Positions 546 through 32,306 of a DNA stretch of 35,491 nucleotides are shown in pieces; the first letter of the stretch is position 1, and every line of letters begins with the position of its first letter. The DNA comes from Clostridiaceae bacterium. Its GTDB lineage: Bacteria > Bacillota > Clostridia > DSM-8532. The DNA is taken from positions 1 through 35,491 of the forward strand of contig JAAYMA010000079.1 of assembly GCA_012521615.1 (NCBI GenBank), read 5' to 3'. The position numbers and the translations under genes are program-made. Under the pieces are notes generated by a model. That model was not told the origin of the DNA. It worked only from the letters and a program-made list of their open reading frames with translations, and did not search any database.

Positions 546-1541
546 TTACCACATAGTCACAAAAGGTTCATATACCTGTTCGCCTATAAGATGTTTTTCA
601 AGTTTATAGAGTTCCATTCGGATCAATCGTCTATATGAAACTTGTCTACCAAGTCGTTTATGGTTGATGGTTCTTTTTAATCTAGTATCCATTTCCTGAA
701 TAAAAATTTTTCTTCCTTCATCCTTTAAATAAATACCGCCGGTTTTTTTATCAAAATGTTTTGCTGTCAACATTCTTTTTCCTACAAGCGTGAATATTAC
801 TCTGTCAACGAGCAGTGGTTTGAATATTTCAGCTATATCAAGGTTTAATGTAAATCTTCTATGATTAGATGTATGTAAAAATCCTATCCGAGGGTCTAAA
901 TGAGTGTTGTAAATTTCGCTTAATACAATTGTATATAATATGGAATTGCCGAAACTTATCAGAGTATTCAGATTATTCTGTGGTGGTCTTCTGGTCCTTT
1001 TATTGAAAATAAAATCATCATTTTCTAATATTAGATCAAATGCACGGTAATATATCTCTCTGACATTGCCTTCTATTGCCATCATTGCTGCTATATCCAT
1101 GCTTGAATCAAGTGCGTTGAGAAGTTCCTGAATTTTCTCAAAAATAGTACTTAACTCTGTTTTTCCTCTTGAAATATAATACTTAAGTACCTGAAGTATA
1201 TTTTTTATGCTTCCTTCAACAATTTTATATGCAATTAACTTTCTTTTTTCAGAGTCCAGATAATATTCTGCCTGTTTTAAAATCATATAACCGGAATTAT
1301 AGTGTTCTCTTGGATAAAAGGTGCCAACATAATATTCATGGTAGTTGAAGAAATGAAGGAGCACATGTTTTTGAGTAGCATATTCCATGAATTTCTTGCT
1401 TACATTGACCTCGCCGAAGATATAGATGTCATTTATATCCTCTATAGGCAGATAATTTTTTCTATCCTCTGTTTCAAAACAGACCGTATTATCTTTTCTT
1501 ATTAAATTACCATCGTTGAAGATATAAGCACTTTTTTTCAT
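546..1541 (-). CDS. cas1: CRISPR-associated endonuclease/integrase Cas1 (type I-B)
   Basis: Cas1 is the metal-dependent integrase that inserts new spacers at the leader-repeat junction. The 331-residue protein has the usual length for subtype I-B. The catalytic triad is visible as Glu157 (in AIEGN), His223 (in FLHTSNHR) and Glu238 (in LDIAEIFKP). The N-terminal part is beta-rich (about residues 1-70) and the catalytic part is helical. The ATG at 1541 has a GGTGAG ribosome binding site. It starts 12 bp after the cas4 stop and is followed 30 bp later by cas2, so cas4-cas1-cas2 form an intact adaptation unit. Confidence 0.97.
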   Translation of the reverse strand: MKKSAYIFNDGNLIRKDNTVCFETEDRKNYLPIEDINDIYIFGEVNVSKKFMEYATQKHVLLHFFNYHEYYVGTFYPREHYNSGYMILKQAEYYLDSEKRKLIAYKIVEGSIKNILQVLKYYISRGKTELSTIFEKIQELLNALDSSMDIAAMMAIEGNVREIYYRAFDLILENDDFIFNKRTRRPPQNNLNTLISFGNSILYTIVLSEIYNTHLDPRIGFLHTSNHRRFTLNLDIAEIFKPLLVDRVIFTLVGKRMLTAKHFDKKTGGIYLKDEGRKIFIQEMDTRLKRTINHKRLGRQVSYRRLIRMELYKLEKHLIGEQVYEPFVTMW

Positions 1542-1553
1542 ATCAACTCACCA

Positions 1554-2066
1554 TTAAGACCAGCATAATTCATTGTAAGCGCAGTTTTTACAGAAGGTTA
1601 TCCTTACAGGTCTGGGCGGCATTTCAGAAGTAACCACTTCTAAAATGCCTTCAAATATCTCATTTAATTTTCGTTTTCCTTCTTTATCAAGGATGATAGG
1701 GTATCTTTTCTTTTCTTCCGGAATTAGTAAAATGCCTTCTGCATTAATTCCCATCTGTTCGAGTTCGTGTAAGTAATATAGTAATTGCATTTCTGCACTT
1801 TCCAGGTATTTTGAACTTTTTTTGATTTCACCTATGACTATCTGTCCGGATTCATTTTTCAGAATATCAAGCTTCATCCCGTAAAAGTCTATTTCTTTTT
1901 TCTCCCGTGCATAGGCCTTTTCATGAAGAAAACGACCTATTTCCATATTTTCATCAGACTGGTCCGGTGTAATACCTCTGGACAGCAGCCATACTTCGCG
2001 TTTGCATATGCAATAGTACCATACGTATGTACCGGTAATTCTAAATTCATCAATATTAAAAAACAT
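1554..2066 (-). CDS. cas4: CRISPR-associated exonuclease Cas4
   Basis: Cas4 is a RecB-like Fe-S nuclease that trims prespacers and sets their PAM end and orientation. In this 170-residue protein the RecB-type nuclease residues appear in order: His48, Asp67 (in MKLDIL), Glu80-x-Lys82 (in IGEIKKSS) and Gln94. The Fe-S cluster ligands are seen as Cys19/Cys21 near the N-terminus and Cys159, Cys162 and Cys168 at the C-terminus. The ATG at 2066 is preceded by AGGTGG with seven bases spacing. It lies 26 bp after cas3 and 12 bp before cas1, in the standard I-B order. All family-defining residues are present, so it is probably active. Confidence 0.95.
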   Translation of the reverse strand: MFFNIDEFRITGTYVWYYCICKREVWLLSRGITPDQSDENMEIGRFLHEKAYAREKKEIDFYGMKLDILKNESGQIVIGEIKKSSKYLESAEMQLLYYLHELEQMGINAEGILLIPEEKKRYPIILDKEGKRKLNEIFEGILEVVTSEMPPRPVRITFCKNCAYNELCWS

Positions 2067-2092
2067 AGTTTATCCACCTGATAATCAATAAA

Positions 2093-4429
2093 CTAAAAAC
2101 AAAACATATCGAAATCTTCTTCTCTTTTAAGTCCTGTTCTTTTATTGTAATGTCGTTTTACATCGTCCTTGTATATAACAAATAAATCATTGCTTTCTGA
2201 AAATACAGGCTGATATCGCTTTGCAAACTTTAAAGGAACTGAAATCATATAATTTTTCATTTCACGTCTTATCTCTTTCAGCCTGTTTCTTCTTTCATTT
2301 ATAATTTTAAAGCTTTTTTTAAATTCTTCAAAAAGTGAAACAGCATACTCATCGTATTCAATAAATAAATCTACATAGTTTTGGTTTGCTTCAATCAGTG
2401 AAAAAGTCCCTATGCCACGTTCTTGACTAAAGTCGAGAGTTTTTAATGCTTTTATTAAATCCTTTGATTCCTGCATAGACACTTTGCCCGACAGTATTAA
2501 ACGGTAATAATTCTGGATTAGCTGCTCAAAGTCTTTTTCAGGTATTTCTAATTTATCCGACAATAATTTTTTTGTTATATCCACAATAACAGCTCCATAT
2601 ACTCTGGCAGCATAACTGTAGCCTCTATCATCAACCATATTCACAACGGTAACGTTTCCATTATCCCTGTCCCATCTTCTGTTACACCTTCCGGCACACT
2701 GAATAATTGAATCCAATGGACCAATGTCGCGAATAACTTCATCAAAATCCAAATCCACCCCTGCTTCTACGACCTGGGTAGAAACAAGGATTACCCTGTC
2801 TTTGTTTAATAAGTTTTCTAATTCTTTTAGAGTTTCTCTTCTGTGAATGGGCAGTAGGTTGGTTGAAAGATATCTGTATTCTTCTTTTGTGCCGTTTTCT
2901 GATAATATATTGTAAACTTGAAGTGATTGGGCAATGGTATTGCACACGATAAGGTATGAATTTTCAGGATGCATATTTTTTTGAAATTCATCGCAAAATT
3001 CTTCTATAGTAATTTTGTCTAATTTAGGAAGTAGTGTAGTTCTTTGAAGCTGCGAGAAATAGTAATTGTAATTTTCAAGTAGTTCTACAGTTTTTGAAAA
3101 AATTAGAGGCTTTGTTGCGGTCATTAGAATAACTTTGCAATCGTATAATTCTACTAATTTCTTAATGGCGTAATCTATTAGTTCGTAATATTTTATTGGT
3201 ATAGCCTGCACTTCATCCAATAAAACAATACTTTTTGTTATGACATGAAATTTCTTTAACATTCTGTTTCTATTACCGATAAGGGTTTGAAGAAGTTGTA
3301 CAAAGGTTGTTACTATAATTCCGCTTTCCCAGTTTTCAATGAACAATCCTGACTGATCTTTTCTATAATCTTCGGTTTCATTAATATATTCCTGATTGGT
3401 TAGATGATGATGTTTAATAAGATACATACTTTTGTTACAATTAAAATCTTCGTGTGATTGATGAAGTTCCTCGATTTTTAGATAATTCTGATCTATGATG
3501 GACGTAAAGGGCAGAGCATAGATAATTTTGTGATTATATCCTAGTAGTTCCTGTAACTTTTTAGCAGTAAAAAAACCTGTATATGTTTTTCCTGTTCCAG
3601 TAGGCGCTGTAATTGAGAAGATAGAATTATTTGAATAAGCGTTTTGCAAATTATTCAAGACGGAACTAAATATTTCATTTCTCATTTTATCTAATTTACA
3701 AGGCTCATATCGTGCAATTATTTCATTTTTGTTACAGGCTAAAACTGAAAAATTTAAATTTTTCTCATCTACCGGCTTAAGTCCAGCAGCACTGATTTTG
3801 TCGGCTGATATCAATGCTGAATAGAGTATTTGATGTATCCAATACTGGTCTTGATCTGGTTCATCTTCATATTCAAATAAAATACGGTTCAGCTTTTTAA
3901 TTACCTCTTTAACTATATCTTTCTGTGAAAGGAATTTCTTCACTTCATTTTGTAATCCTATTTTACTGTAGTCATCCAGTATTATTTTTTGATTTTTAAC
4001 CATGTCTTCAATTTGTATGTCCAGAATTTTTAATTTTTCCTGGGTCTTTCTATATGAAGATGAGCGCACGGATACATCAGGTAAGTAATCTGTACTCGAA
4101 AATTGTTTGATATCACCATGATGAGAAAGTATTACGCTAAAAGTCCAAAGAGGGAACAAGGTATTTGCCAGGTTCAGGTTTTGTATACACAGGAATGCAC
4201 CGAATATAGCTGAAAGGTAGGCATGATTAGCTTTATCCCCCCAGGATTTAATACCTTGCAGGCGATCTTCCTGAAAATAGGTTGTATATTTGCCGAAATC
4301 ATGTGCATAAGCGATAATTCTATGTACCTCTTCAAATCTGTCGTCGCCATACCTTACGCTATATTCGGCTACTTCCTGCAAATGTTTTATGAGCTCTTTT
4401 TGCGGGGTATTATGAGAGTAAAAAACCAT
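2093..4429 (-). CDS. cas3: CRISPR-associated nuclease/helicase Cas3 (HD + DExD/H)
   Basis: Cas3 unwinds and degrades target DNA recruited by Cascade. The N-terminal HD nuclease is visible at His43-Asp44 (YAHDFGK), a further His in KANHAYL and the His pair in LSHHGD near residues 102-104. The helicase has Walker A APTGTGKT (275-282), DEVQ in place of the DEAD box (405-408), MTAT (436-439) and motif VI QCAGRCNRR (577-585). Numbering uses the ATG at 4429, which has GGGAG eight bases upstream. An ATG at 4447 overlaps the cas5 stop as TAATG but lacks a close binding site, and the frame is open to an ATG at 4474. In every case it overlaps or abuts cas5, so the two are probably translationally coupled. 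HD and helicase are fused in one chain of about 778 residues. Confidence 0.94.
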   Translation of the reverse strand: MVFYSHNTPQKELIKHLQEVAEYSVRYGDDRFEEVHRIIAYAHDFGKYTTYFQEDRLQGIKSWGDKANHAYLSAIFGAFLCIQNLNLANTLFPLWTFSVILSHHGDIKQFSSTDYLPDVSVRSSSYRKTQEKLKILDIQIEDMVKNQKIILDDYSKIGLQNEVKKFLSQKDIVKEVIKKLNRILFEYEDEPDQDQYWIHQILYSALISADKISAAGLKPVDEKNLNFSVLACNKNEIIARYEPCKLDKMRNEIFSSVLNNLQNAYSNNSIFSITAPTGTGKTYTGFFTAKKLQELLGYNHKIIYALPFTSIIDQNYLKIEELHQSHEDFNCNKSMYLIKHHHLTNQEYINETEDYRKDQSGLFIENWESGIIVTTFVQLLQTLIGNRNRMLKKFHVITKSIVLLDEVQAIPIKYYELIDYAIKKLVELYDCKVILMTATKPLIFSKTVELLENYNYYFSQLQRTTLLPKLDKITIEEFCDEFQKNMHPENSYLIVCNTIAQSLQVYNILSENGTKEEYRYLSTNLLPIHRRETLKELENLLNKDRVILVSTQVVEAGVDLDFDEVIRDIGPLDSIIQCAGRCNRRWDRDNGNVTVVNMVDDRGYSYAARVYGAVIVDITKKLLSDKLEIPEKDFEQLIQNYYRLILSGKVSMQESKDLIKALKTLDFSQERGIGTFSLIEANQNYVDLFIEYDEYAVSLFEEFKKSFKIINERRNRLKEIRREMKNYMISVPLKFAKRYQPVFSESNDLFVIYKDDVKRHYNKRTGLKREEDFDMFCF

Positions 4430-4446
4430 GGTTTCAGCTCCCGTCA

Positions 4447-5169
4447 TTACATAAACACAATAAATTCTTCGCAACCTTCATAATCCACTTTCCAGCATGC
4501 AAAACCGTCTTTGAGCCGGGCAGTAATTCTTTTACAGCTATTTTCAATAAAATACGACTCTAAAGGCTTTAAGGTTCTGTTTTGACCGAAAGACCGTGGC
4601 ATTTTTTCTTTTAGAAGTGCAATCTCTTCAAGTTTTATTTTTTCGACAGCATCTGCCTTTATAACTGAAGAGATTGGAGTAAATGTTTCGGAAACATATT
4701 TTTCAAAATGAACTTCGGATACAAACTCAATATCTGCCAGGAAAAAGGCTGTCCCCAGTGTTGGAGGAAACACATATTGTGTGTTTTTTAAGCGTGTTAT
4801 TAAAACATCCATGTCCTTAAAAGTATCTCCTCCAACATATACTCTGTAAGAAACGTTTTTGCTTGATGCTATAATTTCAAAAGGAATCTGAGTGTGTTTA
4901 GTGGGTTTTGTAAACTCTGAACTCTTCTCTATTCTCAAATAGTTTAAAGTTTGAGTCATTTTATATGTAGGAGTATTTTTCCTGACAGAGATATGTAAAC
5001 TTTCATCCATATAGGTATAATAGGAATCTCTTTCATATCCTAAAATAGCAGCGATAATTCCCTGGATAGTAGTTCGAGGAGGTACGGTGTAGGATAAGGA
5101 TGAAGAGTTTGTATATGTTTTTCTAAAGTGAGCGTATTTCCCCTCTATGTCAAATATTACACCTCTCAC
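4447..5169 (-). CDS. cas5b: CRISPR-associated protein Cas5 (type I-B Cascade)
   Basis: Cas5 is a RAMP-fold Cascade subunit that holds the 5' handle of the crRNA. The 240-residue product starts with a beta strand (RGVIFDIEGKYAHF) and has the Cas5 signature segment with a Pro-Pro-Arg-Thr turn followed by a Gly-rich helix (PPRTTIQGIIAAILGY, about residues 30-45). The start codon is GTG at 5169 with AAGGATGTG upstream. It follows cas7 by 12 bp, and its TAA stop overlaps an ATG of cas3 as TAATG. Its position between cas7 and cas3 and its length fit the I-B family. Confidence 0.93.
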   Translation of the reverse strand: MRGVIFDIEGKYAHFRKTYTNSSSLSYTVPPRTTIQGIIAAILGYERDSYYTYMDESLHISVRKNTPTYKMTQTLNYLRIEKSSEFTKPTKHTQIPFEIIASSKNVSYRVYVGGDTFKDMDVLITRLKNTQYVFPPTLGTAFFLADIEFVSEVHFEKYVSETFTPISSVIKADAVEKIKLEEIALLKEKMPRSFGQNRTLKPLESYFIENSCKRITARLKDGFACWKVDYEGCEEFIVFM

Positions 5170-5181
5170 AACATCACATCC

Positions 5182-6081
5182 TTATAGTTTTGTTAATCTT
5201 ATGCCGCTGAAAATGTCTTCAATTGATTTCTTCTCGCCGTTTAATGTGATGCAGAGATCTTCATCGTGGAAATATATCACGTTATCAATATTTTGGGTTT
5301 GAGTATTTATGTAATTAACTAAATCGCTAATTTCAAGACTGAATTCATTTATGTTTCTGATATCTCTTAAATCTTCTATTCCTTCTTTTTTTGCAATTGA
5401 GAGATAGTTTCTTAAATCTTTTAATACTGTTTCAGAATCTTTTAATTCAAAACGCATATACAGTCTTGGAGTTTGACCTATCTTACTTCTTGTCGCAAGT
5501 AATGGTATGGCTTTTACCATTGCTTCATCCAATAAATCCAGATCTTCTTTTGAAAGTCCTGTCTCTTCTGCACGTTTTCCGCTAATTACACCTGAAAATG
5601 CTATAAATGAATATTGCACGCGATAATCTTTGCCTATTGCCCCTTGAACATTTTTTGCATCGCTCGCAAAATGAGACGTAATACTGCTTTCCAGCAATTT
5701 GACAGGATTAAGAGAGTAGCCCCAATTGAACTGAACGGGACCGGTTATAGAATGGTTATCGTTCTTCTTTGCGATAGTCGCTCCAAATAAGCGGATGTCT
5801 ATAAATGCCTTTTTGGCAGCGGATACAATATCATCTTTATTGCCAAGAGCTTCTATTCTATTTTCCGATGTTACAGGTGTGCCATCTATTTTTTGTACAT
5901 AGAGCTCATGACCTTTTTGCAAAAGATAATCTCTAATATATCGTTTAAGTCTTAAATCTGACACCAGATTAATATCTCTTTCATAGTCCATCCTTGGTCT
6001 GTTTTCTTCGTCCGGATCACCATTTGGGTTGCATAATCTTGCATCGTAAAGATATAAAATTGCACTGTTTTTTTTGACCAT
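5182..6081 (-). CDS. cas7b: CRISPR-associated protein Cas7 (Csh2/DevR family, type I-B backbone)
   Basis: Cas7 subunits form the helical backbone of Cascade along the crRNA spacer. This 299-residue protein carries the Csh2 N-terminal signature: a hydrophobic strand, NPNGDPDEENRPR, then a Asp/Arg-rich segment that contacts RNA (about residues 16-45). The later segment with QFNWGYSLNP, and SGV near residue 160, also fit the family. The ATG at 6081 is preceded by GGGAGG, one of the best binding sites of the operon, as expected for the subunit needed in most copies. It is separated from cas8b by only three bases and from cas5 by 12 bp. Confidence 0.95.
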   Translation of the reverse strand: MVKKNSAILYLYDARLCNPNGDPDEENRPRMDYERDINLVSDLRLKRYIRDYLLQKGHELYVQKIDGTPVTSENRIEALGNKDDIVSAAKKAFIDIRLFGATIAKKNDNHSITGPVQFNWGYSLNPVKLLESSITSHFASDAKNVQGAIGKDYRVQYSFIAFSGVISGKRAEETGLSKEDLDLLDEAMVKAIPLLATRSKIGQTPRLYMRFELKDSETVLKDLRNYLSIAKKEGIEDLRDIRNINEFSLEISDLVNYINTQTQNIDNVIYFHDEDLCITLNGEKKSIEDIFSGIRLTKL

Positions 6082-6084
6082 AAT

Positions 6085-8076
6085 TTAAACCTCCCTTTCA
6101 TCACTTACTTTTTCAGATTTTCTTTTCATTGTTTGATATCCGTAACCGGATAATAAATAGAAGAGATTTTCATCTTTGTTAAGTTTCCAGTTTTGTTTGT
6201 TTTTATCAAGCAAATATTGATGAGCACTGTAAATTCCTTCGTAATACTGCAAGATTTTTTCGTGACGCAATTTTTCAGGTATTTGATTTGATAGTTTCAT
6301 GATTCTATATTTGTCCATACCATTGAAGTTGATTTTGTTAAGAATGGGTTTGTATGTTCCTTCCTGCTGTCTTTCATACTGCCTTTTGCTCTGTTCTCGG
6401 CCAATAGCGCCAATTAAGACACCGAGCAAAAACAGCGAGGTTTGCTGCTCATCGTAGCCCATTTCTTTAATATAGGTTGAAATGTCATCCTTAAGATTTA
6501 GCATCTCAATACTCATTTTTGCACCTCCTTTCAAAGAGCCATATCTTTCTAAGAAATTTATATAAAACATGCTATCTAATACTTTGTAATCAAAAGCATT
6601 TTGTCTGTTAGTTTGCGTTTTGTTGAATGAAACATTATAGCCTTCCTTTTCTCTCCATATGACTGTTAATATTTCTGAAATATTTGAAAATACCACTTCC
6701 ATGTTTAAAGATTTTTGAGTCAGAATATTTTCATATGTGGAAAGGACATTCTGAAATTGAGCAGGTCCGCCGTCTTTCAGTTTAATGGGGTGCATAAAGT
6801 ATATGAATTTTAAGTTTGCCCTTTTGCTAAGGTTATCTACAACTGCATCAGGATAATATTTATAAAACACATCAAGTGAATCATAAAAGGCATCAGATAA
6901 AGCTTTGAAAACTGAAGGTTCAACATCCTGTATCAGTTTATGAATTTTGGTGGAAGCTTGTACTTTTCTGAAAAACATAATGTTTAAAAGGAATATATAA
7001 TTTTCTTCGTTTAAAAGACTGAGTTTTCTTTCAATCTCACTTCTGTATTTTGCAACTGTATTTAAAGCTTCCCCAGTTCCTGAGATGGGTTCTATTGTTT
7101 CAGCCATTTGTTTAATCTTCTTAGCATTGAGGTTTTCACCATATATTACGTGGGGTAATATATACGCGTCATATCCAGCGATTTTAGTTTTAAGATCATT
7201 TTCCATAAACCTAGAAGCAGCTTTAAATTTGTTGTGGCACTCTTCGCATAAAACTAAGTTTTTATCATAATTCTTTTTGATCATTTTGTGTGCGAAAATG
7301 CTAAGATTGGTTGTGTAAAACTTGGTAACAATATCAATTTTGCTTATGCAATTCTCTGTGGATCCGCAAACAGAGCATGCTAATATTCGGTCTGTAGATT
7401 TTTTAGTTTTTGTTGTTTCCTTTTTTTCTTCTGATTGGAAAGACTTCCTGACTGTTTCGAGATATTCTTCTGTTTCGGTTATAACCTGATTATTTATACA
7501 GACTGTAAATAGGCCGATTTGCTCTGTTTTTATTTCAAATTTTTTTGCTGAAAACTTTGTTATTTCATTTGAAACAAATTGTAGAAGATTTTTGTCTGCA
7601 TTTTTTGGGTTTTCCCGTATTTTTTCTTCTCTGACTTCATAAAGGTTCCATTCAAAGTTGAAAAAGCGGTCTACATTTAGTACATATCTATATCGAGCAG
7701 ATATATCTTCACCTTGGTCGAGAAAAAATGTTTTTATAACTTTCTCAGTTAAGTGTTTTAATTCATTATCTTCTAATTTTTCATATAGCGTAGGGAATAC
7801 ATGTGATACTATATTATTGCATTTATCATATGTTAAATTCCATTGTAATTGATTTGCTCCGCCTTGATGTCCAAAATACAGATATTTTTCCACTGAGTTA
7901 TCGTCCATTTCTTCAATGTCGAAAGAAATGACTTCATTTTTTAAATCAAAATTCATCTTTATAACATATCGTACTTCATTTTTTCTGGTTCTGATTGGAA
8001 CTTTTTTTATGCTTTCTTTAACTATGTCACTATCTTTAAGCAGAATTTCACCTATCTCTATCATAGCTTCCAGCAT
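6085..8076 (-). CDS. cas8b: CRISPR-associated protein Cas8b/Csh1 (large Cascade subunit)
   Basis: Cas8b is the large subunit that recognises the PAM and helps recruit Cas3. The reading frame is open from 8121, but the ATG at 8076 has AGGAAGG about six bases upstream and lies after the cas6 stop, so I use it (663 residues). Numbered from there, two CxxC pairs (Cys234/Cys237 and Cys277/Cys280) form the zinc-finger insertion typical of Csh1. The rest is poorly conserved, as usual for Cas8. The C-terminal part (about residues 525-663) is helical and may stand in for the small subunit. It lies between cas6 and cas7 in the normal I-B order. Confidence 0.93.
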   Translation of the reverse strand: MLEAMIEIGEILLKDSDIVKESIKKVPIRTRKNEVRYVIKMNFDLKNEVISFDIEEMDDNSVEKYLYFGHQGGANQLQWNLTYDKCNNIVSHVFPTLYEKLEDNELKHLTEKVIKTFFLDQGEDISARYRYVLNVDRFFNFEWNLYEVREEKIRENPKNADKNLLQFVSNEITKFSAKKFEIKTEQIGLFTVCINNQVITETEEYLETVRKSFQSEEKKETTKTKKSTDRILACSVCGSTENCISKIDIVTKFYTTNLSIFAHKMIKKNYDKNLVLCEECHNKFKAASRFMENDLKTKIAGYDAYILPHVIYGENLNAKKIKQMAETIEPISGTGEALNTVAKYRSEIERKLSLLNEENYIFLLNIMFFRKVQASTKIHKLIQDVEPSVFKALSDAFYDSLDVFYKYYPDAVVDNLSKRANLKFIYFMHPIKLKDGGPAQFQNVLSTYENILTQKSLNMEVVFSNISEILTVIWREKEGYNVSFNKTQTNRQNAFDYKVLDSMFYINFLERYGSLKGGAKMSIEMLNLKDDISTYIKEMGYDEQQTSLFLLGVLIGAIGREQSKRQYERQQEGTYKPILNKINFNGMDKYRIMKLSNQIPEKLRHEKILQYYEGIYSAHQYLLDKNKQNWKLNKDENLFYLLSGYGYQTMKRKSEKVSDEREV

Positions 8077-8093
8077 AAAATCACCTTCCTTGA

Positions 8094-8822
8094 TTAATTT
8101 AACCGAATCAGCCCAAAACACTGTGAGTTCTTGCTGCCGAGGCCTGCGTCCAATGCCATTTGCAGAAGCTCCTGAGGTCCTGTCAGCTCAAATATGCCGC
8201 TGTAGCCTTTAATGATGGTGTTTTTATAATTTATAATGTTGAGTTTCGGCTCATTTAGAGGTTTTATTTCAATGTTATCTTTAGGAGGCTCTGTTTTTGT
8301 AAAGGCAGTAAATTTTTTTCTGAGGTTTTCAGAAGTGATTCTCTGAAAGTCAGCTTCACGGGGATGAAAATAACAAGTGTATTTGCTACCGTCAGGTCTG
8401 TTGAGGGTGCTGTATGCGACAACAGGGGAGAGGGTTCTGACTTGAATACTGTTTTCTTTTACTTCCTGTTTCTCTATTTTTATGCCGCTTACTTCCACTG
8501 AGTTTGAACCAAGATTTAATTGCTTTTTGAAAAGACCGTTTGCAAAAGATTCACAAAGTTCAATAACCGGTGAAGAAATTTCTATTTTTATTTTATTGCC
8601 GAATTGTATCATTCCTTTATTAACTTTTGTCCTGCCAATCAGATTCGTTATATTGGAACAGGCGAAAAGTTTGAATTTGCGACCGGTTCCATAGCCTTTT
8701 TCATGGAGAAATTCTGCAAGCTCTTCATCCATAGTGTTGTAAATAAAACCTTGCAGAATATGGTTATATGGCAGAGGAAGAGTTATAGGTTCCTGTGAAG
8801 TAAACTCAATAATCAGATGCAC
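8094..8822 (-). CDS. cas6: CRISPR pre-crRNA processing endoribonuclease Cas6
   Basis: Cas6 cuts the pre-crRNA within each repeat, leaving the ATTGAAAC handle. The 242-residue product has the two-RAMP organisation. Candidate catalytic residues are Tyr28, His40 (in EFLHEKGYG) and Lys49/Lys51, aligning with the Tyr-His-Lys set of archaeal Cas6. The C-terminal glycine-rich loop GLGSKNSQCFG matches the family's RNA-binding loop. The start codon is GTG at 8822, preceded by AGGGGG. It is the first gene of the cas operon, and a sigma-A type promoter is readable at 8888-8916. Confidence 0.93.
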   Translation of the reverse strand: MHLIIEFTSQEPITLPLPYNHILQGFIYNTMDEELAEFLHEKGYGTGRKFKLFACSNITNLIGRTKVNKGMIQFGNKIKIEISSPVIELCESFANGLFKKQLNLGSNSVEVSGIKIEKQEVKENSIQVRTLSPVVAYSTLNRPDGSKYTCYFHPREADFQRITSENLRKKFTAFTKTEPPKDNIEIKPLNEPKLNIINYKNTIIKGYSGIFELTGPQELLQMALDAGLGSKNSQCFGLIRLN

Positions 8823-21756: not shown

Positions 21757-23673
21757 TTATTGTGCTGGAACAGGCTTTAGATGTATTCCGTACTCGCTGT
21801 CCATCCTTTCAATATCTATAATTTCGTTTTCCACCAGGTATTCAATAACATTTTGATGCTTGTCGGTAATATGAGGCTGATAGTGATTGAATTCAAAATA
21901 TAGATCATCACTCTCTTTAAACTCAAAGCTTATATTAAAAGGAAGCGATGCCTCATAAGAGCCGTCCATGCTGAATAATGGATCCATATTCTCAAGATCT
22001 TTTTTATATGCTTCAAGAATACCTTCAACATCCGGTATTTCTTTTCTCACATACCCGCCTTCCACAGGGTAGTAATTAAGTGCAACAGAGAGAATATCAT
22101 CTGCACTCTTCGAGAGTATAGGTTCATACTTTAACCTTATTTCAGGAAGAGAAATGTATTCCCTGAGCAGATTATCCAGTTCAGTATTATCCTTATAAGT
22201 TACAAGTCTCCGATAATATCTTTCTATAATATCACCGTTTTTGAGTTTGTATCTGAAATACAGGCTGCGGGTTTTGAATTCCTGATCATCCCAACTGTTC
22301 CCGTAAAGTGAGTCATTGGCCTTGAACAATTTTTCGTTTTGAATGATATACTGATGTATTTTATGAGCTTTTGCAATGGATTCTTCGCTATCGGTCACAC
22401 CAGGAAGTTTCCTCAGCTCCCTGACAAATTCCTCATCAAGCTGCATGGGATAGTCGTCATAATGATATTTGTGACTGAAAAGGTACCTGTGCTCTGCAGG
22501 GTCGTATTCTTCAGGATTTAGAGCAAGGTCCCTTCTGATTTCGTGAACGCTGTAAATATACATGATTTCTATTTCTGATACATCAGGTGCATAGCTTCCA
22601 TAGCCGAAAAAGTCGAAACCTATGCTGTAAAAAAGTATGATTAAAATTAATCCATATACCACAAAACCCTTATATGCTTTAAAAACTCTGAAGGTTTTGC
22701 GAAGCAGCATTTCACATACAAAATAGCCTATAAAACCACCTGTAAGGTAGGCGGCTATATAACCTGTAAGGTTCTGATTCAAATTAAGTATTTCTACTAT
22801 TATTGTGCCCAGTAATGCTGATGAACAGAATGTGGCACTATATTTGAAGATGGGCTTGACTATATTGAAACTTACAACATCTGTCGCAATTTCCATATGC
22901 CTTCTTTTGTAGAGCAAAAGTCCGGTCACAAGAAAGAATACACCAGCAATAAAATAAACCAGGACTGTGCCAATGCTACCTTCATTATTATAAAATCCGT
23001 TAAACAGTCCAGGTATATGATAAAGGGGGGACCACACATCAAATTTGGAAGACGTCCTGTAAAATCCGAACAGCAAATCATAAAGCACATTATTTATCAC
23101 ATTCTCCAGGAAAACTGCCAGGAAGTTGAAGATTAAATAATAGAAGACCTGGGCCGCCATGTGACCTGTAAACATGCCCGCAAATACTGCAAATGTATAA
23201 AGCAGGAAGGTAAGGACTAAATTAACCCCAAGCCACTGGAAGGCGTAAGTAAGCGGAATACCCAAATAAACTTTGGCGAGAATCATGATAGCCCCATTTA
23301 ACACAATGGGGAAAGTTACAAGTAAGAGCCCCGAAAGATAGTTGGTGATATAAAGGGTTTCCCTTTTTAAAGGCAGTGAATGAATCATGGCGGTATTACG
23401 GGGAAAATGCATGTAGGAAAAGACGGCCAATGCAGCAATAAGGCAGAAAAAGCCCGGAAGTAACATCATGATATCAGTGCTCTGAGGAAAAATACTTGCG
23501 GCAATATTAACAGGGTCATTGTCGTAAATGCTGTTTATTCTGGCAGAAACAGAATTTGTATAATCCATCATAAAAAGAAACAGCAGGAATGAAAAAGCAA
23601 AGGTAATAAGCCAGAAACGTTTTATATTATTAAGGAAAACTCCCTTATTAAAGTATGATGTTTTTGACCGCAT
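21757..23673 (-). CDS. ABC transporter permease with large C-terminal domain (Ytr-type)
   Basis: The frame is open from 23730, but GGAGGT lies eight bases before the ATG at 23673, which overlaps the end of the ATPase gene by 26 bp, so I use 638 residues. The N-terminal half is hydrophobic, with about ten predicted membrane segments from FWLITFAFSFLLFLFM to YGLILIILFYSIGF. A large acidic, Tyr-rich domain of about 270 residues then follows the last helix, probably outside the membrane. It is the membrane part of an exporter with the upstream ATPase. YtrA-regulated transporters respond to cell-wall-active compounds in Bacillus. The substrate here is unknown. Confidence 0.8.
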   Translation of the reverse strand: MRSKTSYFNKGVFLNNIKRFWLITFAFSFLLFLFMMDYTNSVSARINSIYDNDPVNIAASIFPQSTDIMMLLPGFFCLIAALAVFSYMHFPRNTAMIHSLPLKRETLYITNYLSGLLLVTFPIVLNGAIMILAKVYLGIPLTYAFQWLGVNLVLTFLLYTFAVFAGMFTGHMAAQVFYYLIFNFLAVFLENVINNVLYDLLFGFYRTSSKFDVWSPLYHIPGLFNGFYNNEGSIGTVLVYFIAGVFFLVTGLLLYKRRHMEIATDVVSFNIVKPIFKYSATFCSSALLGTIIVEILNLNQNLTGYIAAYLTGGFIGYFVCEMLLRKTFRVFKAYKGFVVYGLILIILFYSIGFDFFGYGSYAPDVSEIEIMYIYSVHEIRRDLALNPEEYDPAEHRYLFSHKYHYDDYPMQLDEEFVRELRKLPGVTDSEESIAKAHKIHQYIIQNEKLFKANDSLYGNSWDDQEFKTRSLYFRYKLKNGDIIERYYRRLVTYKDNTELDNLLREYISLPEIRLKYEPILSKSADDILSVALNYYPVEGGYVRKEIPDVEGILEAYKKDLENMDPLFSMDGSYEASLPFNISFEFKESDDLYFEFNHYQPHITDKHQNVIEYLVENEIIDIERMDSEYGIHLKPVPAQ

Positions 23674-24544
23674 AGTCCATACCTCCAAGTTCATAGATGA
23701 ATATTTCCTCCAGTGAAAGTGGCAGGGCATCTACCAGCAGAGGGTTGAGTCTGTTTACATATTCCAGTATATTTTTACGCTCGCCGCGGACAATTAAAAT
23801 CCAGACCCTTCCGCTTGACTGTCTGTTTAATATATCCAACCTGTTGATTTCTTCAGGAAGATCACCTTCAAAAGCTATCTGCAGCTTCAGGATATTGTTT
23901 TGAATTTCGGTGAGACTCCGCTCTATCAGAACTTTTCCCTCGTGCATAATTCCTACATGATCGCATACATCCTCAAGTTCTCTCAAATTGTGGGAAGAGA
24001 CAAATACCGTCATTTCCCGTTCTGCCACATCCTGCAGAAGAATTCCCCAGACTTTTCTTCGCATTACAGGATCAAGCCCGTCCACAGGTTCGTCAAGTAT
24101 CATAATATCAGGCTTAAGACATATACTCAGCCAAAAGGCTGCCTGTTTCTGCATACCCCGTGAAAATCTCATGATCCTTTTTTTAGGATCCAGGGGAAAA
24201 GCCTCTTTGAGTTTTTCAAATCTGTCTTCATCAAACTGAGGATATATGGATTTATAATATTTTTTCATGTCCAATATAGTTGCTTGAGGGAAAAAATACA
24301 AATCATCCGGAATATATGCTATCCTTGATTTTATTTCAGGATTCTCAAACACGGGCTGTTTGTCTATGGTTATTTCTCCTGTATCAGGGATGAAAATTCC
24401 TGTCATCAGCTTGATCAATGTGGTTTTTCCGGCGCCGTTGGGCCCGACAAGACCGTATACAGAGCCTTTGTTGACATTTATATCTACCCCGTTCAATGCA
24501 TAAAAACCATCAAAAGATTTTTTAATGTCTCTGATTTTTATCAT
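23648..24544 (-). CDS. ABC transporter ATP-binding protein (YtrB-like)
   Basis: The 298-residue protein has Walker A GPNGAGKT (34-41), a divergent signature FSRGMQKQ (127-134) in place of LSGGQ, Walker B ending ILDEP (149-153) and the switch histidine in VSSHN. The variant signature, the YIPDD segment and the position between a YtrA-type regulator and a large permease fit the YtrB/BcrA group of exporter ATPases. The ATG at 24544 overlaps the regulator stop as ATGA, so the two are translationally coupled. It carries an extra C-terminal region of about 80 residues after the nucleotide-binding domain. Confidence 0.9.
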   Translation of the reverse strand: MIKIRDIKKSFDGFYALNGVDINVNKGSVYGLVGPNGAGKTTLIKLMTGIFIPDTGEITIDKQPVFENPEIKSRIAYIPDDLYFFPQATILDMKKYYKSIYPQFDEDRFEKLKEAFPLDPKKRIMRFSRGMQKQAAFWLSICLKPDIMILDEPVDGLDPVMRRKVWGILLQDVAEREMTVFVSSHNLRELEDVCDHVGIMHEGKVLIERSLTEIQNNILKLQIAFEGDLPEEINRLDILNRQSSGRVWILIVRGERKNILEYVNRLNPLLVDALPLSLEEIFIYELGGMDYAVKNIIL

Positions 24545-24930
24545 GGCGTGTTCTCTCCTTTAAAGCACTCTGAGCGGATAAATTCAATAATTTCGTTTTC
24601 TTCTGCACCCAGGAAAATAAGCTCCGATATAGTATCTTTGACTACTTTATATAGTTCGCCAATACGTTCAGAATTAATATTTTCCGGCCGGGGAGCAACG
24701 AAACTTCCTTTGCCGGGAACAGTATATATAAACCCTTCGGTTTCAAGCTCCCTCATAGCTTTCTGGATAGTATTGGGGTTAATGGATGTAGATTGGGCAA
24801 GTTCCCTGATTGAAGGGAGTTTCTCGTCCTGTTTAATAGCACCGGTAATAATGAGGTGCTTGATATTATCGCGGATTTGCTCATAGATAGGTTTGGAGCT
24901 TCTGAAGTCAACAGCTATGATAGTTATCAC
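24541..24930 (-). CDS. ytrA: GntR-family repressor, YtrA subfamily
   Basis: This short (129-residue) GntR protein has the winged helix at about 15-75: SKPIYEQIRDNIKHLI, KLPSIRELAQSTSINPNTIQKAMRELETEGFI and the wing PGKGSFV. The C-terminal part is only about 50 residues, as in the YtrA subfamily, which has a dimerisation helix pair and no ligand domain. The called start is GTG at 24930, but GGGAG directly abuts it; relatives begin about where codon 4 (ATC, 24921) lies, so the true start is uncertain. It is the first gene of a repressor-ATPase-permease operon, with an operator matching the YtrA site directly upstream. Confidence 0.88.
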   Translation of the reverse strand: MITIIAVDFRSSKPIYEQIRDNIKHLIITGAIKQDEKLPSIRELAQSTSINPNTIQKAMRELETEGFIYTVPGKGSFVAPRPENINSERIGELYKVVKDTISELIFLGAEENEIIEFIRSECFKGENTP

Positions 24931-24960: not shown

Positions 24961-24999
24961 TATAATAAGTGTACTATATGAAATAGTACACTTATTATA
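24961..24999. promoter_or_regulatory. YtrA-type operator, perfect palindrome
   Basis: TATAATAAGTGTACTAT (24961-24977) is an exact inverted copy of 24983-24999, with five bases (ATGAA) between. Inside it is AGTGTA (24968-24973), 13 bases, TACACT (24987-24992), which matches the operator layout reported for Bacillus subtilis YtrA. It covers the -10 box and the transcription start of the ytrA promoter on the minus strand, so bound repressor would block RNA polymerase directly and the operon is autoregulated. Confidence 0.9.
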
Positions 25000-25022
25000 C
25001 ATTTAACAATTATGCCCGTCAA
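24994..25022 (-). promoter_or_regulatory. Promoter of the ytrA-ABC exporter operon
   Basis: On the minus strand TTGACG (25017-25022) and TATAAT (24994-24999) are 17 bp apart. The -10 hexamer lies within the right arm of the palindrome and the expected start site within its centre. The -35 is only 12 bp from the end of the upstream phosphohexomutase gene, so the two operons are tightly packed on the same strand. Confidence 0.85.
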
Positions 25023-32266: not shown

Positions 32267-32306
32267 GTTATATAGGCACGGGCAGAACTATCCGTGCCTA
32301 TATAAC
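32267..32306 (+). terminator. Intercistronic stem-loop between binding-protein and permease genes
   Basis: A perfect 15-bp inverted repeat (32267-32281 and 32292-32306, arm GTTATATAGGCACGG) surrounds a 10-nt loop. It is not followed by a T-run, so it probably acts as a partial terminator or as a 3' stabilising hairpin for the binding-protein mRNA. Such structures give the binding protein higher expression than the membrane components in many sugar ABC operons. The ATG of the permease gene is 18 bases further, with GGGGG upstream. Confidence 0.7.

Follow-up and report, generated by a model that had tools for sequence, protein, structure and literature searches.

How is the output of a transporter operon set when the first gene of that operon encodes its own putative repressor, and which elements of the DNA determine how much repressor is made? 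This question is raised by a 35,491-nucleotide stretch of the genome of a Clostridiaceae bacterium (hereafter the window), in which a long palindrome overlies the promoter of a short GntR-type gene. An initial annotation of the locus had predicted an operator for autoregulation of an ABC exporter. That finding is correct and ordinary; the less ordinary part is the adjacent, conserved and probable AUH start codon of the regulator, on which the annotation was silent.

The palindrome occupies positions 24961-24999, where two 17-nt arms (24961-24977 and 24983-24999) are 100% complementary across 5 nt, reading TATAATAAGTGTACTAT-TTCAT-ATAGTACACTTATTATA on the minus strand (24999-24961). It had been called a perfect 39-bp palindrome within a wider interval, 24961-25022, that comprised both palindrome and promoter; the perfection is that of the arms, the 5-nt centre being asymmetric. 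Such a structure is far beyond chance. Under a simple base-composition model about 3e-5 pairs of 17-bp arms with a gap of 0-5 are expected in the window, and the longest arm among 60 dinucleotide shuffles of the window was 13, against the 17 observed. The pattern AGTGTA-N11..15-TACACT has a single match in the window (24968-24992, spacing N13) and none in 100 shuffles. As had been noted, this core has the same form as the published sequence AGTGTA-13bp-TACACT bound by B. subtilis YtrA (PMC8060467, citing Salzberg 2011).

On the minus strand the elements follow one another in the order -35 box, 17 bp, -10 box (which is also the first part of the palindrome), leader, Shine-Dalgarno sequence, GntR regulator, ABC ATPase and large permease. 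The -35 box TTGACG (25022-25017) and the -10 box TATAAT (24999-24994), the latter forming the outer end of one arm, match 11 of 12 consensus bases at a spacing of 17. Since the promoter scan overall returned 7 promoter-like sites where 5.5 were expected, the call depends on score, place and conservation: all 12 homologues with sequence that far upstream have TTGACA or TTGACG, followed 17 or 18 bp on by a -10-like hexamer. From this geometry transcription would begin at about 24987, 7 nt past the -10 box and within the putative operator, in agreement with the earlier view that the arms cover both the -10 box and the start site. The same position of the start makes unlikely the RNA hairpin that had been suggested for the 5' end of the transcript, because most of one arm would then remain untranscribed. 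Indeed, that the palindrome acts as an RNA element of any kind, be it such a hairpin or a terminator or attenuator behind the upstream phosphoglucomutase-like gene, is extremely unlikely. Read-through RNA across it does fold strongly (-36.1 kcal/mol, z -4.96), and changes on both arms would preserve an RNA stem as well as a DNA site, but the full stem is present in read-through RNA only, whereas RNA from the predicted start, which misses most of one arm, folds like its shuffles (z -0.74). Furthermore, GTACTA/TAGTAC is fixed in its letters across homologues, beyond what pairing alone would require, and the palindrome is kept even though the phosphoglucomutase-like gene is matched upstream in only one of the 13 other loci (L022; the flank of L031 is only 19 nt long). 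The terminator scan gave 0 terminators at the palindrome, and with the upstream gene not kept across loci a terminator of that gene was rejected.

If the palindrome is a DNA site, its most immediate candidate ligand is the product of the gene that follows. Counted from its probable ATC start codon this product has 126 aa (24541-24921, minus strand; the ORF finder begins it at 24930), and it matches PF00392, the N-terminal GntR winged helix, with E 2.8e-16. Among solved structures, sequence comparison places Lmo2241 (4ham) and further short GntR proteins nearest to it. A structural model (mean pLDDT 85.8, 6 sequences) predicts a winged helix followed by two helices, at residues 84-103 and 108-119 of 126, and its Foldseek matches are 4ham, 3by6, YtrASa (6sbs) and a C. 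glutamicum factor (2ek5). A C-terminal domain cut down to two helices and about 50 aa is the layout described for the YtrA subfamily (PMC4494728). The features by which that subfamily is recognised are found together here, namely a GntR winged helix, a two-helix C-terminal domain, an ABC transporter operon, and at the gene's own promoter a long palindrome with distant GT/AC half-sites.

The remainder of the operon likely encodes an ABC exporter, as the initial annotation had assumed. An ATPase assigned by family search (23648-24544, minus strand), with its own Shine-Dalgarno sequence and ATG, overlaps the stop codon of the regulator and is followed by an ABC-2-like permease of 638 aa with a C-terminal DUF6449-like domain (21757-23673, minus strand). 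The permease start called by the ORF finder, 23730, was corrected, being probably 19 codons too early: a stop codon lies within 23673-23730 in 7 of 10 homologues. By itself the permease matches Pfam weakly (DUF6449, 0.0015, below the Pfam cut-off); among the members compared, at E <= 1, DUF6449 is matched in 9 of 11 (best 1.4e-7) and ABC2_membrane_5 in 5 of 11 (best 1.7e-4). Its structural model is middling (pLDDT 66.2), with a weak best fold match to NosY of NosDFY (E 0.009) and a lower one to PmtCD (E 0.5). Matches to both ATPase and permease lie downstream of the regulator in all 13 other loci, the permease being only partly seen in L024, L026 and L031 and the ATPase match being in pieces in L034.

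Conservation of the palindrome was followed among the close homologues of the regulator (E <= 1e-22), here termed orthologues since the operon is kept with them; of 33 genomes in the order 14 have one, and these fall into two genera. The promoter comparison comprises 13 of these 14, L031 being left out with its contig end too near the gene, and L034 was masked to the left of GTACTA. In every one of the 13 the palindrome lies over the promoter, with GTACTA-N7-TAGTAC invariant and the 7-bp centre variable. The extended arms that had been emphasised are exact over 17 bp in the window itself, but the part that is invariant among homologues is GTACTA-N7-TAGTAC, and the outermost three pairs, at the -10 box, are only partly kept. 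Over 16 named pairs, 94.4% of cells pair, against 14.6-50.0% when slid by 1 to 3 columns, a count in which 6 of 198 cells are G-T, accepted by the pairing tool but not formed by DNA. The position immediately before GTGTA (columns 11/35) is A-T in 7 loci, G-C in 4 and mixed in 1, one further locus giving no data, and the G-C cases occur in both genera (L030; L027, L028, L032). The observed values were reached by 3 of 500 column shuffles for cells changed on both sides and by 2 of 500 for the covariation score; the covariation stems mainly from one position, and the count of 3 pairs with both-side changes was attained in 60 of the 500. Among homologues at large, 77 of 118 rows have [GCT]TGTAnTA-N6..8-TAnTACA[n] within 170 nt upstream, so that the operator belongs to a widespread type. 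We rely on this sequence-specific count because a general scan for palindromes (at least 10 of 12 pairs within 150 nt), which gave 51 in 79 relatives against 48 in 395 mononucleotide shuffles, evidently includes some terminators further upstream.

Taken together, the position, form and conservation of the palindrome indicate that it very probably serves the adjacent YtrA-type repressor as its operator, as first proposed. As a kind, it is already known and of the ordinary YtrA-subfamily type. With regard to the suggested conservation of the operator between Bacillus and clostridia, the form is the same, and clostridial YtrA-subfamily operators have already been described as a group, 53 clostridial factors having been analysed by Suvorova 2015 (PMC4494728). 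Those operators, as there described, are likewise long palindromes, mostly with one site and one ABC operon, and for the operator as a kind we see no difference. The likeness to B. subtilis YtrA (ytrGABCDEF, ywoBCD) is one of operator form and subfamily, taken from the published description (PMC8060467): there, too, a GntR-family repressor lies in an ABC transporter operon and acts at AGTGTA-13bp-TACACT, but ytrGABCDEF has more genes than the one ATPase and one ABC-2-like permease found here, where, in addition, the genome has but one N13 site and the regulator a probable AUH start codon. Other members of the subfamily likewise act on their own operon, according to the accounts of ClnR of C. 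difficile (PMC6117091), PmtR of S. aureus (PMC5080381) and YtrASa of S. acidocaldarius (PMC6746942), and for PmtR and YtrASa the site lies over, or overlaps with, the start of transcription (PMC5080381, PMC6746942), as predicted here. Cell-wall antibiotics may be one option as inducers. By analogy peptides may be another, given that ClnR, which also acts on other genes, responds to LL-37 (PMC6117091) and PmtR to phenol-soluble modulins (PMC5080381). In this context the operator makes explicit the expected target of a pump regulator.

Whether the same regulator acts elsewhere, or other regulators act at this site, was approached through the whole genome, a search for other copies of the site having been proposed as a way to define the regulon. 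AGTGTA-N11..15-TACACT occurs in three places, against 0 for the reversed-pattern control: in the window (N13, the only such spacing), on contig C27, 19 bp ahead of a further short GntR gene (N12), and on C80, inside a coding sequence (N11). With up to 3 mismatches, AGTGTANTA-N7-TANTACACT was found at 12 places in the genome versus 16 for its reversed control, the window site alone having fewer than 3, and further N7-type targets in this genome are, on these counts, unsupported. The genome holds 8 GntR matches, four of them in short frames, and all four short GntR genes have an upstream palindrome (arms of 17, 11, 17 and 10 bp). In principle, the C27 regulator, with AAGTGTATTAGTCATATAATACACTT as its own palindrome, could bind the window site in addition to, or instead of, the adjacent regulator, the two palindromes sharing AGTGTA...TACACT half-sites. 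We consider this unlikely: the spacing is N12 rather than N13 and one inner base differs per half-site, each of the four short paralogues has an adjacent palindrome of its own, and the window-type site stays beside its own regulator in all 13 promoters with sequence. Half-sites differ between paralogues (AGTGTA, ACTGTA, ATTGTA), and a correlation of bases with residues within the YtrA subfamily has been described by Suvorova 2015 (PMC4494728). A separate paralogue of the same family, of DLK/ELK type (L010, L040-L045, L048, L143, L147, L152-L158, L161), starts at ATG and is accompanied by very long perfect palindromes with arms of 17-23 bp, for example TTGTACTATTGTATTAAGCGCTTAATACAATAGTACAA, in which the two arms change in concert from locus to locus (TACTA/TAGTA vs TATTA/TAATA).

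A possible second determinant of repressor supply lies 40 bp downstream of the palindrome, at the start codon of the regulator. Alignment with homologues places the probable start at ATC (24921-24919), a codon of the non-canonical AUH class, and not at the GTG chosen by the ORF finder, which begins with the last G of the Shine-Dalgarno sequence AAGGGAG (24936-24930). At the fourth codon upstream of a conserved Asp (24909-24907), all 14 close homologues (L021-L034), from two genera, have ATC (9), ATA (4) or ATT (1). The same aligned place is ATG, GTG or TTG (60, 9 and 7) in 76 of 79 further relatives, 76 of which came from the class search and 3 from another search, and in the remaining 3 such a codon lies one step upstream. 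Excluded from this count are 25 of 118 rows, which scored under 88 bits and for the most part represent other paralogue types; among them are the CTG-start candidates L037 and L038. The latter belong to another YtrA-type paralogue, seen in three genomes of the genus (L037, L038, L141), with an apparent CTG start in the place of the ATG or TTG of relatives; the CTG of L141 is immediately preceded by a TTG.

As ATC, ATA and ATT are also isoleucine codons, their occurrence alone would be compatible with an internal position, but the alignment opposes this, and so do five loci (L023, L028, L029, L030, L032) in which no in-frame ATG, GTG or TTG lies between the upstream stop codon and the ATH place. 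In these five the next such codon comes only at residue 38-68, within the DNA-binding domain, so that a non-canonical start is forced there unless a frameshift intervenes. A start at the GTG (24930), with ATC as an ordinary internal codon, is the ORF finder's own call, and an in-frame GTG is present in 5 of the 14 homologues; yet this GTG belongs to the Shine-Dalgarno sequence and is GGG in the other 9, the residue encoded immediately ahead of ATH is free to vary (Thr, Pro, Lys, Ile, Asn, Phe, Ala), and the start codons of relatives align with the ATC place. Moreover, a similar false in-frame GTG is found in the Shine-Dalgarno sequence of infC in 27 of 29 loci, though it is absent in the window's own genome. 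We therefore regard the GTG start as very unlikely and the case as an example of how a GTG within a Shine-Dalgarno sequence can lead an ORF finder to the wrong start. On this comparison the regulator probably starts at an AUH codon, here ATC, in all 14 close homologues. That operator and AUH start hold jointly, as an autorepressed operon with a non-canonical regulator start, appears highly likely from the sequence.

The 14 ATH homologues form one clade (SH-aLRT 100, no bootstrap) in a quick tree built from 124 columns, with 45 of 90 inner branches unresolved. The tree calls for a single step from NTG to ATH, a minimum of 4 exchanges among ATC, ATA and ATT, and no return to NTG. A Shine-Dalgarno sequence stands at normal spacing before the ATH codon and was scored in 13 of the 14 loci, L031 being cut by the contig end. 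A stronger Shine-Dalgarno as simple compensation for the weak codon is not supported, the medians being -16.0 kcal/mol (n=13) against -15.3 in NTG-started relatives (n=76), with p = 0.056.

A known AUH-start gene provides a control. Under autocontrol by IF3, infC begins with ATT in E. coli and with ATC in Streptomyces (PMC5472188), and in S. aureus its start is AUA (PMC13009471). Among 32 genomes of the family it was located in 29, and in all 29 loci it has GGAGGTG-N6 or N7 followed by ATT (18), ATA (8) or ATC (3), thus varying among the same three codons and showing the same spacing as the regulator (GGGAGTG-N6-ATC). Likewise, ccpN has a conserved AUA start in S. aureus and B. subtilis, and its AUH site gave about 10-30% of the AUG yield as measured in S. 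aureus (PMC13009471). Thus ccpN and infC provide precedents for a transcriptional repressor, and for IF3, begun at AUH behind a Shine-Dalgarno sequence (PMC13009471), the difference being that here a putative YtrA-type autorepressor from another lineage would head an export operon. Streptomyces sigR is likewise described as heading a regulatory operon from a weak start, there IF3-restricted, with a second gene following that has its own ribosome-binding site (PMC5472188), but its codon is GTC rather than ATH and the pair consists of sigma and anti-sigma factor rather than repressor and pump. A literature search on AUH starts and on YtrA/GntR start codons, which covered few subscription papers, returned no YtrA-type gene with such a start, and the YtrA section of Suvorova et al. 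2015 (PMC4494728) does not deal with regulator start codons. A conserved AUH start would add a regulator to the few genes described as being kept on weak start codons (infC, sigR, ccpN, cvfC1).

How, then, might operator and start codon be functionally coupled? By analogy with YtrA, PmtR and ClnR, a regulator dimer would bind the two GTACTA/TAGTAC half-sites, covering -10 box and start site alike, and would block transcription of the operon until a signal releases it. A second brake could operate in translation, where the AUH start, as in infC, would yield little repressor per transcript, while the ATPase behind it would be translated from its own Shine-Dalgarno sequence and ATG; both the low yield and a sensitivity to IF3 are suggested by infC, sigR and ccpN. 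One would then expect repressor molecules to be few, the site to be single and tight, and the pump to be induced at a low threshold. A stronger reading, that the two genera have kept an IF3-restricted AUH start since their common ancestor, such that repressor supply and pump threshold depend on the fidelity of initiation as well as on the operator, we put forward tentatively, at somewhat less than an even chance. The arrangement suggests that a translational bias, low for the repressor and high for the transporter, may be a design of such operons.

Elsewhere in the window, a second long inverted repeat (32267-32306), with 15-bp arms and a 10-nt loop, follows a solute-binding-protein-like gene and is possibly a terminator. 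A run of minus-strand genes at 546-8822 resembles, by eye, type I CRISPR-associated genes.
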